DNA of 64,000 bases, taken from contig CAMDYX010000005.1 in assembly GCA_945910395.1 (NCBI GenBank), positions 1 through 64,000 of the forward strand. The letters are read 5' to 3'. The notes under the pieces are model-generated. The model was not told the origin of the DNA, did not search any database, and saw nothing but the letters and a program-made list of their open reading frames with translations. Source of the stretch: an uncultured Agathobacter sp. (lineage in GTDB: Bacteria > Bacillota > Clostridia > Lachnospirales > Lachnospiraceae). The translations under genes and the position numbers were made by a program. This document shows, piece after piece, positions 32,577 through 40,126 of this stretch (position 1 is its first letter; each line of letters begins with the position of its first letter).

Positions 32577-33038
32577 ATGAGAAACACTACACTTTGTTAT
32601 ATCGAAAAAGATGACTGTTATCTTATGCTGCTTCGAAACAAAAAGGAAGTGGATGAGAACAAAGGGAAATGGATTGGTATTGGCGGAAAGTTTGAAGAGG
32701 GAGAAAGCCCGGAGGAGTGCCTGCTTCGGGAAACAAAGGAAGAAACCGGACTTACGCTTTTAGATTATCGCTTCCGGGGAATTGTAACCTTTTTGTCCGA
32801 TGAGTGGGGCTGTGAATATATGCATCTGTTTACCGCTGATCGATTTGAAGGGGAAGTAACCGCGTGCAGTGAAGGAGAGCTGAAATGGATTCCAAAAAGC
32901 AAGATTCTGGATTTAAATCTCTGGGAGGGTGACCGCCCGTTTCTAAAGCTGCTTTTTGAGGACAGTCCCTTTTTTACCATGAAGCTGTCCTATAAGGGAG
33001 ATACGCTTACAGATATACAGACGAAGATTTACCGGTGA
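32577..33038 (+). CDS. Nudix hydrolase (MutT-like)
   Basis: This 153-residue Nudix protein has the box GGKFEEGESPEECLLRETKEETGL, matching GX5EX7REUXEEXGU. The family cleaves nucleoside diphosphate linkages; an 8-oxo-dGTP or related substrate is possible but unproved. It follows the regulator by 15 bases and precedes the large fusion gene closely, so it may be read with the fru operon. Confidence 0.9.
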   Translation: MRNTTLCYIEKDDCYLMLLRNKKEVDENKGKWIGIGGKFEEGESPEECLLRETKEETGLTLLDYRFRGIVTFLSDEWGCEYMHLFTADRFEGEVTACSEGELKWIPKSKILDLNLWEGDRPFLKLLFEDSPFFTMKLSYKGDTLTDIQTKIYR

Positions 33039-33064
33039 TTATACAAAGGAGGAGGAACGGGGAT

Positions 33065-36000
33065 TTGAGAAGAGTTTTACTTATTTCAGACGGCTGGAAA
33101 CGATTGGTTACCTACGCCTGGGTTGACGGAATCATGCATGGGGCAAAGGAGCTTGGGGAAGAAATCTGCTTGTATCAGTTTAATACAAACGGAAACTGGA
33201 GCCGTGATAAAAAATACAATAATGGCGAATATAATCTGTTTACGCTCCCGAATTTCGAGGACTACGACGGGGTTATTTTTGACGGAACAAATATCACAGA
33301 CCAAAGACAGCTCAATGCAATTGTAAAAAAATTAAAGGATCTGGATATTCCGGTGGTAAGCATCTGCTATGCGGTAGAAGGCTGCTATTATGTGGGAAAT
33401 GATAATTATAAGCTGTTTCGGGAGCTGATTGACCATCTGTATCAAAAGCATGGATGTCGGGATTTTGTTTTTGCGGGAGGACCGGATTACAACTACGAAA
33501 ATCAGATTCGTTATAAGTCCTTCTGCGACGCGATGGAAGAATACCACTTACCATGCGATGAAAGCCGTTGCCTGTTTGGAGATTTTGATTTTGGAACTGG
33601 GGTCAGGTACTTTAACGAGTGGGTGGAGCAAAAGAAGCCCCTGCCGGGAGCCTTCGTCTGTGCAAATGACAATATTGCAGCCGGGATTTGTTCCGCGGCC
33701 GAACGCCATGGATTTAAGATCCCCAGGGATTTTCTGGTTACAGGCTTTGACAATCTGGATAAAGCTGCATACTTCAATCCCCAGATTACAACGGTAGAGC
33801 ATAACCGTGGAAATATCGGAAAAACCGCCTTAAGAATTCTTTCCCAGAAATGGAAAGGGGAAGAGGTGGACGCGTTCCAATATCTGGAATCGGAATGCAT
33901 TTTCGGAGAGAGCTGCGGCTGCCCGAACAGCGGAAGGGTGGACTACCGGAATTACATCAAGTGGCAGATCGAGTATTCGGTGAAAAAGGAGTGCGAAGAT
34001 GAGGCGGTCATGGTGCTGGAAAACCAGATTGCCGAATGCAACGATTACAGAAGTCTGTTTCAGGGATTTGCCAGCTATATTGAATCCCTTTCTTGCGATG
34101 GAGTATACTTCGTCGTGGATAGAAAGCTCTTAGATGCACGGCTGGACACAGCATTTTCCAATAAGGGCTATCGAAACAGGCATGAGCTTGAGGTAGGTTA
34201 TGCAATTGAGCACGGAAAAGAGCTGCAGTTTGCAGGAGAGCAGGCGCTAAGCCGATATCTGGACGAAAACGGTGCGAACAACGCATATATGTTTTCTGCA
34301 ATTCATTTCCGGGATCAGAATGTAGGCTTTACGATTTTGAAGAACCCTACCTTTTTGTATGAAAATCCTTCTTATTATGATGTACATTCCGTTTTTGTTA
34401 CAAAGCTGGAAAATCTGTTTAAGCAGACACAGCTTAAAAATGTATACAACAGAGATGCTTTGACCGGACTATACAACCGTGTGGCTTACAATGAAATGAT
34501 CGTACCGAGATTTGACAGATATACCCGTCAGAATATTTCCTGTGCAATGGTCTTCTTCGATGTGGATAATTTTAAGCAGATGAATGATACCTATGGACAT
34601 AAATTCGGGGATGAGGTACTGAAAACGATTGCAAAAACCCTGGAGAGGGAAAAGCCAAAGAACAGCTTTTCATATCGATTTGGCGGAGATGAGTTTGTGG
34701 TCTTTCTGGCAGATGCGACAGAAGAGAATATAGCTGCATTTGTGAGCCGTGTAAATAAGATTCTGTCGGAGCGGAAGATCAAGTTGAGCCATGGCGTAAT
34801 CGTTACGGACCCAAAGAGTGGGAAAACCCTGGATGAATATTTAGTGATGGCGGATAAGAAAATGTATGAAGTAAAAGCAGCGAGAAAGAGAAATGCAAAA
34901 ATGAATTTTTTGAAGGGTGTGGATATTTCCTCCCTCCCGGAGCACTTGGATGGTGGGGAGAAATTTTATCTGGCAGACGGAAGATGCGTGGATGCATTTG
35001 AACTGCTTGCCGAAAATCATATCAATTCCGTTCGCCTTCGTATCTGGAATGAGCCGAATCTGGTGTCGGAGGCAAAAGGCTACTGTGACCTTGCCCACAC
35101 CATTGAAATGGCAAAAAAAATAAAAGCCCATGGAATGCATTTTTTGCTTGACTTCCATTACTCCGATTATTGGGCAGATCCGGGTCAGCAGAGAAAGCCC
35201 AAGGCCTGGGAAAATCTTTCCTTTGAAGAGCTGAAGGAGGCCGTATATCAATATACAAAAGAGGTTCTTGACGCATTGGAGGAAGCCGGCGCTCTTCCGG
35301 ACATGGTTCAGGTAGGAAACGAGATTCGAAGCGGCATGCTTTTCCCGGATGGAGCAGTTCCGGCGTATGACAATCTGGCGGCCCTCATCAATGCGGGAAT
35401 CCGGGCAGTAAGAGAAAAATCGTCGGATATTTCGGTTATGATACATTTAGACCAGGGAGGCCGATTCTTCTACTTAAAGGAGTGGTTCGATGCAGTATTT
35501 GCAGCAGGAATGGAACCCATCGATGCCATCGGAATATCCTTCTACTCCTTCTGGCATGGAACCTTTATGGATTTAAAGAATTCCATGGAACAGCTGATTG
35601 AGCGCTATCATGTTCCGGTGTATGTGGTAGAAACCGCACATCCCTGGCGACACTGCAAGGCGGAGCATGTTTCTGTTGACCTTATGAAAACGGCGGGACT
35701 TCCGGCAGGGGAAGAAGAGCAGAAGAAATCCCTCGCCCTTGTGATGCAGATCGCGGCAGCTGTGTCAAAGGATCTGCCAACCGGAGTATACTATTGGGAG
35801 CCTCTCTGCATACCGGGAAAAACCTATGGAAGCTGGGATGAGAACATGGGAATGCTGGATGAAAACGGAAAAGCACTCCCATCCTTTGAGATGTACCGCG
35901 ACTTTGATCCGAAGAACCCTCCGATTGAGAATTTGGAGGAATATATCGAATCCTTATATGCGGTGGATGAATCACAGCTGGCACCGGCAGGGACAAATCT

Positions 36001-36418
36001 GGTTCCAAACGGAGATTTTTCGGAAGGGGTAAAGGGATGGTGGATCACAAAGGACCCGGAGGAGGTCACCATTGAGGAAAAGGATAAAGAAGTCTATGTT
36101 TCCTGCAAGAGTAATTTTACCTTCGAGCTTTTCCGGGACGTTCATATTGATAAAGCCGGAACCTATTGTTTATCCGTGGAGTATCGTGGAACAAATACGA
36201 CGGGAGTGCAGGTAGAGCTATTCCTAAAAACCATTACCTGTAATGGACAGGAAGAGTACACAAAGACGATTTTTCCATCGGATGTGAGATTCGTTGTCCA
36301 TAGCATTGAGAATTTGAAGCTTTCTGCCGGACAGGTACAGCTTGGAATCCGGATGAATACACCTCCTGTATTTGGAAGAATCCGGAATATCTCTCTGGTT
36401 GAGATTGTCGAAGATTAG
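33065..36418 (+). CDS. LacI-type sensor/GAF-like/GGDEF/GH53 galactanase fusion
   Basis: The 1117-residue protein has, in order, a LacI/PBP1-type sugar-sensing domain without an HTH (residues 1-290), a GAF-like segment (about 300-455), a GGDEF domain (motif YRFGGDEF near 540), a GH53 domain (about 615-945) and a beta-rich carbohydrate-binding-like tail (from about 978). GH53 starts FLKGVDISSLPEH and has the acid/base Glu in VQVGNEI (near 753) and the nucleophile Glu in VVETAHPW (near 856). The diguanylate cyclase I-site RxxD is absent. No signal peptide or membrane segment is visible, so it should be cytoplasmic. A TTG at 33065, 9 bases after GGAGG, is preferred to the GTG at 33035. Its role in galactan or galactooligosaccharide sensing is inferred. 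Confidence 0.85.
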   Translation: MRRVLLISDGWKRLVTYAWVDGIMHGAKELGEEICLYQFNTNGNWSRDKKYNNGEYNLFTLPNFEDYDGVIFDGTNITDQRQLNAIVKKLKDLDIPVVSICYAVEGCYYVGNDNYKLFRELIDHLYQKHGCRDFVFAGGPDYNYENQIRYKSFCDAMEEYHLPCDESRCLFGDFDFGTGVRYFNEWVEQKKPLPGAFVCANDNIAAGICSAAERHGFKIPRDFLVTGFDNLDKAAYFNPQITTVEHNRGNIGKTALRILSQKWKGEEVDAFQYLESECIFGESCGCPNSGRVDYRNYIKWQIEYSVKKECEDEAVMVLENQIAECNDYRSLFQGFASYIESLSCDGVYFVVDRKLLDARLDTAFSNKGYRNRHELEVGYAIEHGKELQFAGEQALSRYLDENGANNAYMFSAIHFRDQNVGFTILKNPTFLYENPSYYDVHSVFVTKLENLFKQTQLKNVYNRDALTGLYNRVAYNEMIVPRFDRYTRQNISCAMVFFDVDNFKQMNDTYGHKFGDEVLKTIAKTLEREKPKNSFSYRFGGDEFVVFLADATEENIAAFVSRVNKILSERKIKLSHGVIVTDPKSGKTLDEYLVMADKKMYEVKAARKRNAKMNFLKGVDISSLPEHLDGGEKFYLADGRCVDAFELLAENHINSVRLRIWNEPNLVSEAKGYCDLAHTIEMAKKIKAHGMHFLLDFHYSDYWADPGQQRKPKAWENLSFEELKEAVYQYTKEVLDALEEAGALPDMVQVGNEIRSGMLFPDGAVPAYDNLAALINAGIRAVREKSSDISVMIHLDQGGRFFYLKEWFDAVFAAGMEPIDAIGISFYSFWHGTFMDLKNSMEQLIERYHVPVYVVETAHPWRHCKAEHVSVDLMKTAGLPAGEEEQKKSLALVMQIAAAVSKDLPTGVYYWEPLCIPGKTYGSWDENMGMLDENGKALPSFEMYRDFDPKNPPIENLEEYIESLYAVDESQLAPAGTNLVPNGDFSEGVKGWWITKDPEEVTIEEKDKEVYVSCKSNFTFELFRDVHIDKAGTYCLSVEYRGTNTTGVQVELFLKTITCNGQEEYTKTIFPSDVRFVVHSIENLKLSAGQVQLGIRMNTPPVFGRIRNISLVEIVED

Positions 36419-38077: not shown

Positions 38078-40126
38078 ATGAAGAGTAATATACGTTTTAA
38101 GGGAAAGCTAAAAGGCTATCTTAGTATGCCGTTATACCTTATGATATTATTTGTTGTACTTAATATATCCATGTACTTTTATGATGTAAGAAGCGGAGCA
38201 GTTATCAGCGTATTTCTTGCAATTTATGGGGTAGCAGAGGGAATTCTTTTTTGGGGAATGCATCAGAAAGTGGCAAACGAGATCGTCAATTATGCAACGA
38301 ACTACGCTACTGTACAGAAGCGTTTACTAAATGAGTTTGAAATACCCTATGCACTTTTGGATTACAGCGGGAAAATATTGTGGGTAAATGATCAATTTGC
38401 AGAGCTGGCAGATATTGACCCAAAGAAGTACCACAAGTCCATTACCACCATTTTCCCAACTATTACCAGAGAATTTTTGCAGAAAAGCGATCAGCCGCAG
38501 AATATCAATATTGAGAAAAATGACAGACGTTTCCGTATTTCCATCAACCGTATTTATTTTGATGCCATTGCATCTTCGGGAGAGCTTTTAGAAACAGATG
38601 ATGCAGAGGAGTTTTTGACGGCATTGTATCTGTTCGATGAGACAGAATTGAACCGGTATATGGTGGAGAATGAAGAGCAGAAGCAGGTGGCAGCCCTTGT
38701 TTATATTGATAATTATGAGGAAGCGCTAAACAGTATTGAAGATGTAAAACGCTCCCTGCTTGTGGCGTTAATCGACCGGCGGGTAAACCAGTATTTTGCA
38801 CAATATGATGCTCTTGTGCGAAAAACCGAGAAGGATAAATATTTTGTTGTTTTTAAATACAAATATCTGCAGCAGTTAGAAGAGGACAAGTTCAAGCTTC
38901 TTGAGGATGTAAAGTCGGTAAAAGTGGGAAACGAGATGGCGATTACCCTCAGCATCGGTGTCGGAATTCACCGCGACAGCTACAACCAGAGCTATGATTA
39001 TGCCCGGGCGGCCATCGATATTGCTTTGGGACGAGGCGGAGATCAGGTGGTTGTAAAGGACGGGGAAGAAGTCATTTACTTTGGAGGAAAGGCAAAGCAG
39101 ATTGAGCGCAATACCAGAGTAAAAGCAAGAGTGAAGGCCCAGGCGCTCCGTGAAATCTTAGAGACAAAAGAGAATGTACTGATTATGGGTCATGCTCTTA
39201 CTGACGTGGATGCCCTTGGCGCAGGTGTCGGCATCTACTGTGCATCACAGATTCTTGGGAAAAAAGCTCAGATCGTTGTAAACAATCCATCCAGCTCCAT
39301 CCGTCCGATTATGGAGTCCTTTTCAACGGATAAGGGATATGCACAGGATTTGTTTGTAACCAGTGAGCAGGCTCTTGAAATGATGGGAAGGAATACTGCT
39401 GTTGTGGTTGTGGATACGAACCGTCCAAGCTCCACCGAATGTCCGGAGCTGTTAAAGCGTACCGAATGCATCGTGGTATTTGACCATCACAGACAGGGAA
39501 ATGAGATTATTGAAAATCCGCTTCTCTCCTATATTGAACCCTATGCATCCAGTGCCTGTGAGATGGTGGCAGAGGTGCTGCAGTATTTCGATGAGAATCT
39601 GAAGCTGGAATCCTGCGAAGCAGACTGTATCTATGCGGGTATTCTGATTGATACCAATAACTTTATGACAAAGACCGGAGTCCGTACCTTTGAAGCGGCA
39701 GCTTATCTGAAGCGTTCCGGCGCTGAGGTAACCCGGGTGCGCAAGCTCCTGCGCAATGATATGGATGCCTACAAGGCAAGGGCGGAGGCTGTCCGGCATG
39801 CCGAGGTTTACCGTGGGGCCTTTGCGATATCCATCTGTCCGGGCGAAAATGTGGAAAGCCCAACCATCGTTGGCGCCCAGGCTGCCAATGAGCTTTTGAA
39901 CATTGTGGGAATAAAAGCATCCTTTGTCCTCACGGAGTATCAGGGAAAAATATATGTAAGCTCGCGTTCGATCGATGAGATCAATGTGCAGCTTATCATG
40001 GAACGGTTAGGCGGAGGCGGTCACTTTAATATGGCTGCAACGCAGTTAAAGGACTGCACCTTAATGCAGGCCAAGCAGATGATCCAGGAGACGCTGGATA
40101 AGATGATTGAGGAAGGAGATATCTAA
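38078..40126 (+). CDS. gdpP: Cyclic-di-AMP phosphodiesterase GdpP
   Basis: The 682-residue membrane protein has two N-terminal transmembrane segments, a PAS-like domain, a degenerate GGDEF domain (KDKYFVVF where GGDEF would be) and DHH/DHHA1 domains. Metal ligands appear in MGHALTDVDALGAG, VVDTNRP and VFDHHRQG, and the DHHA1 motif is GGGGHFNMAATQ. It would hydrolyse c-di-AMP to pApA. The gdpP-rplI-dnaB order matches yybT-rplI-dnaC of Bacillus. Confidence 0.95.
   Translation: MKSNIRFKGKLKGYLSMPLYLMILFVVLNISMYFYDVRSGAVISVFLAIYGVAEGILFWGMHQKVANEIVNYATNYATVQKRLLNEFEIPYALLDYSGKILWVNDQFAELADIDPKKYHKSITTIFPTITREFLQKSDQPQNINIEKNDRRFRISINRIYFDAIASSGELLETDDAEEFLTALYLFDETELNRYMVENEEQKQVAALVYIDNYEEALNSIEDVKRSLLVALIDRRVNQYFAQYDALVRKTEKDKYFVVFKYKYLQQLEEDKFKLLEDVKSVKVGNEMAITLSIGVGIHRDSYNQSYDYARAAIDIALGRGGDQVVVKDGEEVIYFGGKAKQIERNTRVKARVKAQALREILETKENVLIMGHALTDVDALGAGVGIYCASQILGKKAQIVVNNPSSSIRPIMESFSTDKGYAQDLFVTSEQALEMMGRNTAVVVVDTNRPSSTECPELLKRTECIVVFDHHRQGNEIIENPLLSYIEPYASSACEMVAEVLQYFDENLKLESCEADCIYAGILIDTNNFMTKTGVRTFEAAAYLKRSGAEVTRVRKLLRNDMDAYKARAEAVRHAEVYRGAFAISICPGENVESPTIVGAQAANELLNIVGIKASFVLTEYQGKIYVSSRSIDEINVQLIMERLGGGGHFNMAATQLKDCTLMQAKQMIQETLDKMIEEGDI

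Follow-up and report, generated by a model that had tools for sequence, protein, structure and literature searches.

A conserved fusion of a LacI-type sensor, a GGDEF domain and a GH53 domain in Lachnospiraceae

In this work, we describe a gene from a 64-kb window (positions 1 to 64,000 of contig CAMDYX010000005.1, assembly GCA_945910395.1, an uncultured Agathobacter sp.) whose single reading frame joins a LacI-type sugar sensor, a GAF-like segment, a GGDEF domain, a GH53 domain and a CBM61-like module. The motifs of both enzymes are intact and the fusion is conserved in other Lachnospiraceae. Close unfused relatives of the sensor region co-occur with GH53, and one parallel fusion carries a GH3 hydrolase instead. 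Sensor cyclases of the periplasmic-binding-protein (PBP) type are already known as a kind; for the conserved combination of sensor, cyclase and galactanase as a system, no description was found in the literature covered. The protein is probably a cytoplasmic diguanylate cyclase that responds to galacto-oligosaccharides and also degrades its own signal sugar, its ligand, cyclase activity, cytoplasmic hydrolysis and coupling being predicted.

Architecture and conservation of the fused gene

The gene lies in an open frame of 1127 codons (33035-36418, plus strand; table 1). We place its start at the TTG at 33065 because this codon is preceded by the ribosome-binding-site-like AAAGGAGGAGG and aligns with the ATG of 20 complete fused orthologues. 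The original prediction, made from the letters of the window, had proposed a LacI-type domain without helix-turn-helix (HTH), a GGDEF domain and a GH53 domain in one frame, and Pfam confirmed this order, with matches to Peripla_BP_3 (4e-25), GGDEF (3e-32) and GH53 (8e-99), each above its own cut-off. Searches of NCBIfam and the PDB were consistent with these calls. The LacI/GalR-type domain has the two-lobed periplasmic-binding-protein fold, and both the profile match and the fold of GH53 were found in the window protein. Pfam detected no HTH and the sensor domain's first strand opens the protein; lacking an N-terminal HTH, it does not count as a LacI transcription factor. As had been claimed, a signal peptide is not visible, and neither is a membrane segment, the highest 19-residue Kyte-Doolittle mean in a hydropathy scan being 1.22. 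The segment before the GGDEF domain matched no Pfam family at E <= 1, and GAF or GAF_2 was weakly matched in two of 19 relatives (best E 0.01-0.04), so that the GAF label, for which the evidence is the secondary structure of the model, is no more than plausible. The tail, described before as beta-rich, is modelled as a CBM61-like sandwich, its nearest fold match being galactan-binding CBM61 (a galactotriose-binding structure), level with a hyaluronan-binding module; CBM_4_9 matched the protein below its cut-off.

Table 1. Features of the fused gene in the window and of two unfused neighbours discussed in the text
Feature	Position	Strand	Remarks
Whole gene: LacI-type sensor / GAF-like / GGDEF / GH53 / CBM61-like	33065..36418	+	1117 aa; TTG start
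Ribosome-binding-site-like AAAGGAGGAGG	33045..33055	+	ahead of TTG
LacI/GalR-type sugar-binding domain without HTH	33065..33922	+	residues 1-286
Linker helices and GAF-like alpha/beta segment	33974..34450	+	residues ~304-462; secondary structure of model
GGDEF domain (predicted diguanylate cyclase)	34448..34888	+	RFGGDEF at 34676-34696; without RxxD inhibitory site
Linker GGDEF to GH53	34889..34912	+	holds ATG 34901 (M613)
GH53 domain	34913..35893	+	acid/base E753 (35321-35323), nucleophile E856 (35630-35632)
C-terminal CBM61-like beta-sandwich	35990..36406	+	
G160 unfused neighbours	L119:7550-10039 and L119:10201-12159		convergent

The hallmarks of GGDEF cyclases are the GG[DE]EF A-site, a metal-binding Asp and the guanine-contacting N and D, as in PleD. 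We compared these and the GH53 active site in the window protein and the 20 complete fused orthologues. All 21 proteins keep RFGGDEF, the metal-binding Asp in F(F/L)D(V/A)D and NDT(Y/F)GHxxGD, and all 21 keep both catalytic Glu of GH53, with ETAYPW replacing ETAHPW in one orthologue, which bears out the earlier statement of an intact GGDEF motif and both catalytic Glu. The RxxD product-inhibition I-site, common among GGDEF cyclases and not required in them, is present in none of the 21, PxxS, PxxG or PxxA standing there instead. VQVGNEI and VVETAHPW line up with the catalytic Glu of the solved GH53 enzymes 1r8l and 2gft; the nucleophile aligns with an Ala of 2gft, a structure titled as the E263A nucleophile mutant. 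With its motifs intact, the GGDEF domain is predicted to be a diguanylate cyclase, and the GH53 domain, with its catalytic residues present, to cleave beta-1,4-galactan. In the LacI-type domain, R149, N201 and D229 are conserved among relatives; we take them to be the sugar-contact positions R197, N246 and D274 of LacI.

Named genomes were searched, and the 30 loci obtained were sorted by reading-frame analysis. The complete single-frame fusion is present in 18 of them (L035, L038-L051, L053, L059, L061), and in eight the frame crosses the junction before running into the end of the contig (L036, L037, L052, L054-L056, L060, L062). The others are an N-terminal half at a contig end (L063, from the same assembly as L060), two loci with the GH53 part only (L057, L058) and an unrelated GGDEF protein (L064). 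One complete copy (L040) belongs to strain XBB2008; its contig is 404 kb long and is not labelled in the record title as a metagenome-assembled genome (MAG), and a rumen sample is named for seven of the 30 loci. Two distinct fused genes (L046, L053) occur in one MAG (RGIG7055), as paralogues or as a result of mixed strains.

Among 397 Lachnospiraceae genomes sampled across the family, the fusion was found in seven, from six genera, a lower bound given that two candidates were scored per genome; one of the seven shows it as halves at contig ends (G285) and two have it cut at a contig end (G006, G358). Within the window's genus it is present in four of 60 genomes, the window's own counted, one of them a single-contig 3.4-Mb genome; G409 is apparently the same place as L051, and the genus adds two orthologues. 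Six pairs were compared, and in every part of the four examined nonsynonymous change was much lower than synonymous change, many of the synonymous values being saturated. The search for the same domain order that had been proposed thus yielded 18 complete loci plus the two from the genus. Because the same fusion is conserved in other genomes, including the single-contig one, chance and assembly artefacts are excluded; a frameshift or assembly join between GGDEF and GH53, at about 34905, is rejected on these grounds, nor do homologues always keep the two halves separate.

The ATG at 34901 falls where free GH53 proteins begin. An internal ATG start yielding a separate GH53 protein was considered and rejected, a linker Met being present in just four of 21 fused proteins and therefore no conserved feature. 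The linker between GGDEF and GH53 measures 10 to 32 residues among fused proteins.

Trees were repeated, by a quick method, after adding the closest unfused rows (L075, L076, L078-L082); several unfused rows lie on long branches, and support is given by the Shimodaira-Hasegawa-like approximate likelihood ratio test only (SH-aLRT, no bootstrap). In the tree of N-terminal halves, 22 fused rows split from 14 unfused ones with an SH-aLRT of 100; a first tree with fewer rows had 20 fused and 11 unfused. In the tree of GH53 halves, the free proteins L057, L058, L078 and L079 fall inside the fused group, beside the window's subclade, most simply as a result of later loss of the N-terminal half.

Among 102 matching plasmid records, no single location spans 80% of the query. 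A match on an L. plantarum plasmid over residues 452-990 was discarded, as Pfam found GH53 and no GGDEF there and the overlap is due to chance. A Lactococcus garvieae plasmid (NZ_CP118628.1, L118:5001-6521) carries a homologue of the GH53 and C-terminal domains (32% over residues 614-1114), located between lactose phosphotransferase system (PTS) genes and an aldose-1-epimerase family gene, at a place where the PLSDB table has no gene.

Association of the sensor with GH53 genes

At a cut-off of E <= 1e-20, 121 of the 397 genomes carry a sensor-region homologue, versions of ~640 aa being widespread. The seven fused genomes were set aside and a close unfused sensor was defined by E <= 1e-75. Of the 17 genomes carrying such a sensor, 16 have GH53, compared with 24 of 97 that have distant ones only and 38 of 276 with no sensor match. 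For the close-sensor genomes against all other unfused genomes, Fisher p is 2e-11. Restricting the comparison to the 114 unfused-sensor genomes, thresholds of 1e-50, 1e-60, 1e-70, 1e-80 and 1e-100 gave p values from 0.007 to 6e-8, a threshold of 1e-40 gave 0.02 and a rank test 0.0006. An earlier count of GH53 in 25 of 45 selected genomes was discarded as biased, those genomes having been chosen by their matches in an earlier search, and the unselected 397-genome test was used instead. By co-occurrence, then, the evidence for a link between sensor and GH53 is strong.

The neighbourhoods of unfused sensors are suggestive only of a link with galactan. In G344, an ABC (ATP-binding cassette) permease gene stands in a row with an unassigned gene of 630 aa, GH42, a cytoplasmic GH53 and, last, a LacI-GGDEF gene. 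In G330, one strand carries a solute-binding protein, permeases, a homologue of the 630-aa gene, GH53, LacI-GGDEF and GalE, with GH42, GalK, GalT and an extracellular GH53 farther on the contig. In G076, a LacI-GGDEF gene split over two frames adjoins an extracellular GH53. The ~630-aa protein (L068:1047-2936, L066:9208-11049) is 85% identical between two galactan clusters, sits between a sugar ABC permease gene and GH42/GH53, and its L068 copy has no Pfam match.

As for the fused genes themselves, the one in L035 is preceded by two GH43 genes and a solute-binding protein and followed by an extracellular GH53 with a broken frame. Five loci of the XBB2008 type (L038, L039, L040, L059, L061) have the fused gene after glycosyltransferase-like and GH13-like genes, named by eye. 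Downstream in L040 come an EAL protein, a second LacI-GGDEF protein, a gene without assignment and an HD-GYP protein; by sequence clusters, with Pfam run on L040, an HD-GYP-type gene lies downstream in all five loci and EAL directly downstream in two (L040, L059).

In the window itself, the neighbours are NUDIX, DeoR and NfeD genes and, by eye, fructose-PTS genes, and they form no cluster shared with the neighbours of the orthologues. A downstream gene (38078-40126) is GdpP-like by eye, with membrane segments, a degenerate GGDEF-like part and a DHH-like part. The window's own genome has 30 GGDEF matches (29 above the cut-off), 11 EAL and two PilZ, and three further GH53 genes, by eye two exported and one cytoplasmic. 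A search of this genome for the c-di-GMP-I riboswitch (c-di-GMP, cyclic diguanylate) gave no match; the control search also matched nowhere.

Related fusions and described proteins

One protein of another Lachnospiraceae genus (L085:1815-6131, G002:C58) follows the same scheme as the window protein with a different hydrolase: its 1439 aa comprise a LacI-type sensor, a GGDEF domain (with GGDEI, not GGDEF) and the N and C domains of a complete GH3. In G160, each half has a close homologue (62% and ~60% identity), and the two are separate, convergent genes placed tail-to-tail, 161 bases apart. L085 was the only LacI-GGDEF-GH3 fusion in the 397 genomes, again with two candidates scored per genome. 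Two unrelated hydrolase families on the same sensor-cyclase module nevertheless argue for a functional link, L085 being a single case.

Seven long LacI-type open reading frames were scanned from 14 regions; one is this GH3 fusion and the other six combine LacI with EAL, three of them carrying GGDEF too. In four such proteins (L084:1979-5329, L087:1906-5268, L090:925-4263 and L083:374-4180, the last also with GGDEF), the EAL domain is followed by ~390 residues without a Pfam match at E <= 1e-5, and their C-terminal ends look alike by eye.

The original prediction knew of no described system of this kind. We found no description of LacI-GGDEF-GH53 in the literature covered, which included few subscription journals, and to that extent the statement stands; its parts are more familiar. 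PBP/LacI-type sensor proteins with GGDEF share the N-terminal half of the window protein, and in the available text of PMC8846402 Periplas_BP/LacI-type domains figure as putative sensors of cyclic diguanylate proteins, with no validated role named. Those proteins mostly stop after GGDEF or run into EAL, whereas the window protein continues into GH53 and a CBM61-like module.

The combination of GGDEF with GH53 is probably present in CAZy already, unrecognised. According to the accessible part of PMC5342196, a 7TMR-DISM/GGDEF protein matched, in CAZy, CBK94002 (ERE_21070 of Eubacterium rectale M104/1, said to have a GH53 domain) despite having no similarity to the GH53 of CBK94002, and a HAMP-GGDEF protein was annotated as GH53 by a tool for carbohydrate-active enzymes (PMC5457731, available text). 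It is very likely that CBK94002 holds a GGDEF domain besides GH53; were it such a fusion, both GH53 labels would be explained. Measured glycosidase activity is reported for these GGDEF proteins as well, in the portions available of both papers.

GH53 enzymes had been held to be normally exported, and this generalization did not survive: GH53 proteins of at least nine loci in this family (L002, L017, L020, L023-L026, L057, L058) lack a signal peptide by eye. Cytoplasmic proteins with the same GH53 and a C-terminal extension (L017, L020, L023, L024, L057, L058, L078, L079) are stand-alone, unlike the window protein with its joined sensor cyclase; L057 and L058 have GH53 domains 66-68% identical to that of the window protein and the same C-terminal domain. 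In L017, L023 and L024, the cytoplasmic GH53 adjoins, by eye, HTH-bearing LacI-type regulators, an ordinary counterpart of the sensor-hydrolase pairing.

Extracellular GH53-CBM61 galactanases, known from the TmCBM61 structure and the Roseburia gpPULs, likewise pair GH53 with a galactan-binding module; they are secreted, and signalling domains are not reported for them in the available text (PMC5320581). The GH126-GGDEF protein of Bacillus velezensis also carries a glycoside hydrolase and GGDEF on one chain, in the opposite order, with a degenerate GGDEF (SAERF instead of GGEEF) and, in the part of the source available, no LacI-type sensor reported (PMC7479077).

Proposed function and alternatives

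The window protein would be a soluble, cytoplasmic protein of three activities in the pathway of beta-1,4-galactan (pectic type-I arabinogalactan). Extracellular GH53 enzymes would cut galactan, and the oligosaccharides would then be imported. Inside the cell, a galacto-oligosaccharide or galactose would bind the LacI-type domain, and binding may alter the dimer state and activity of GGDEF through the GAF-like/helical segment, changing the level of c-di-GMP. The GH53 domain, aided by the CBM61-like module, would hydrolyse the same oligosaccharides. On one chain, sensing and removal of the sugar would be stoichiometric and, more speculatively, the enzyme could end its own signal, which would fit a cyclase without a product-inhibition site. 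The idea that one protein could sense, signal and cleave, already part of the original prediction, is backed by the co-occurrence and, more weakly, by gene context.

Several observations weigh against this reading. One close-sensor genome (G341) lacks GH53, the 1e-75 threshold was picked after seeing the data, genome relatedness was uncontrolled, and there is no GH53 trend from 1e-20 to 1e-75 (11/44, 9/30, 3/16, 1/7). We also scanned ~8 kb (less at contig ends) around 19 close-sensor loci in 18 genomes, G370 contributing two loci and the window's own genome one, its second LacI-GGDEF gene. The scan is partly circular, as its queries came from G330 and G344, which match by construction. The other 17 loci gave GH53 in G076, GalE in G196, a permease at 28% identity in G349 and no match in 14, and three of 17 non-circular loci versus none of 18 controls, hand-picked for long contigs from the 397-genome sensor search, is barely more than the controls show. 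The genes that adjoin the fused gene in the window carry no hint of galactan. In the structural model, the match to CBM61 ties with a hyaluronan-binding module, and the predicted template modelling score of the whole is only 0.48, so that domain packing is not set by the model. Finally, the free GH53 proteins L057, L058, L078 and L079 nest within the fused clade (supports 83 and 91), which means that the halves can separate again.

This last point also favours the best-surviving alternative, namely that two working enzymes were joined just for co-expression, an ordinary cytoplasmic galactanase and a LacI-GGDEF half that would sense a galactan sugar independently, with no allosteric or signal-ending coupling. 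That the partner can be lost would be expected under it, as would the free cytoplasmic GH53 proteins with the same C-terminal domain (L057, L058, L078, L079), the free LacI-GGDEF adjoining a free GH53 in two genomes and the variable linker. The fused sensor halves, however, form one clade (SH-aLRT 100) over several genera, longer-lived than expected of a neutral join, and we consider this alternative unlikely. Much less probable still is that the GH53 and CBM61-like parts act mainly as a second sensor, occupancy of the cleft and not turnover setting cyclase activity: where a cytoplasmic protein is already equipped with a sugar sensor, an oligosaccharide cleft with a glycan-binding module is odd for catalysis alone, yet a pure sensor could lose the catalytic Glu that all 21 proteins keep. 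It is very improbable that the GGDEF part makes no c-di-GMP in vivo, having a guanosine triphosphate-binding or other allosteric role in a regulated galactanase, for although some hydrolase-fused GGDEF domains are degenerate, such as the SAERF of GH126-GGDEF (PMC7479077, available text), all 21 proteins have every cyclase motif intact, and in XBB2008-type loci the fused gene has genes for EAL and HD-GYP proteins close by.

A broader proposal, which we put forward tentatively and regard as rather doubtful, is that of a class of cytoplasmic sense-signal-digest proteins, with GH53 and GH3 as the least number of versions. Each would couple a LacI-type sensor cyclase to a hydrolase that acts on the cyclase's ligand, so that one molecule would start a c-di-GMP signal from an imported glycan and end it by consuming that glycan. 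If true, rumen and gut Lachnospiraceae would have in it a nutrient switch that terminates itself and decides between a free life and one attached to fibre.

A sugar ligand is known for few enzymes of c-di-GMP, and in the available text of a 2022 review sugars reach such enzymes only through the PTS (PMC8846402). The fused hydrolase described here points to the likely ligand, and one purified protein makes both this ligand and the link between plant fibre and c-di-GMP directly testable. A fused protein in the database perhaps explains why GGDEF proteins have been labelled GH53. A more general rule is hinted at by the unfused sensors, namely that the LacI-type cyclases of Lachnospiraceae may report the glycan of an adjoining or fused hydrolase.

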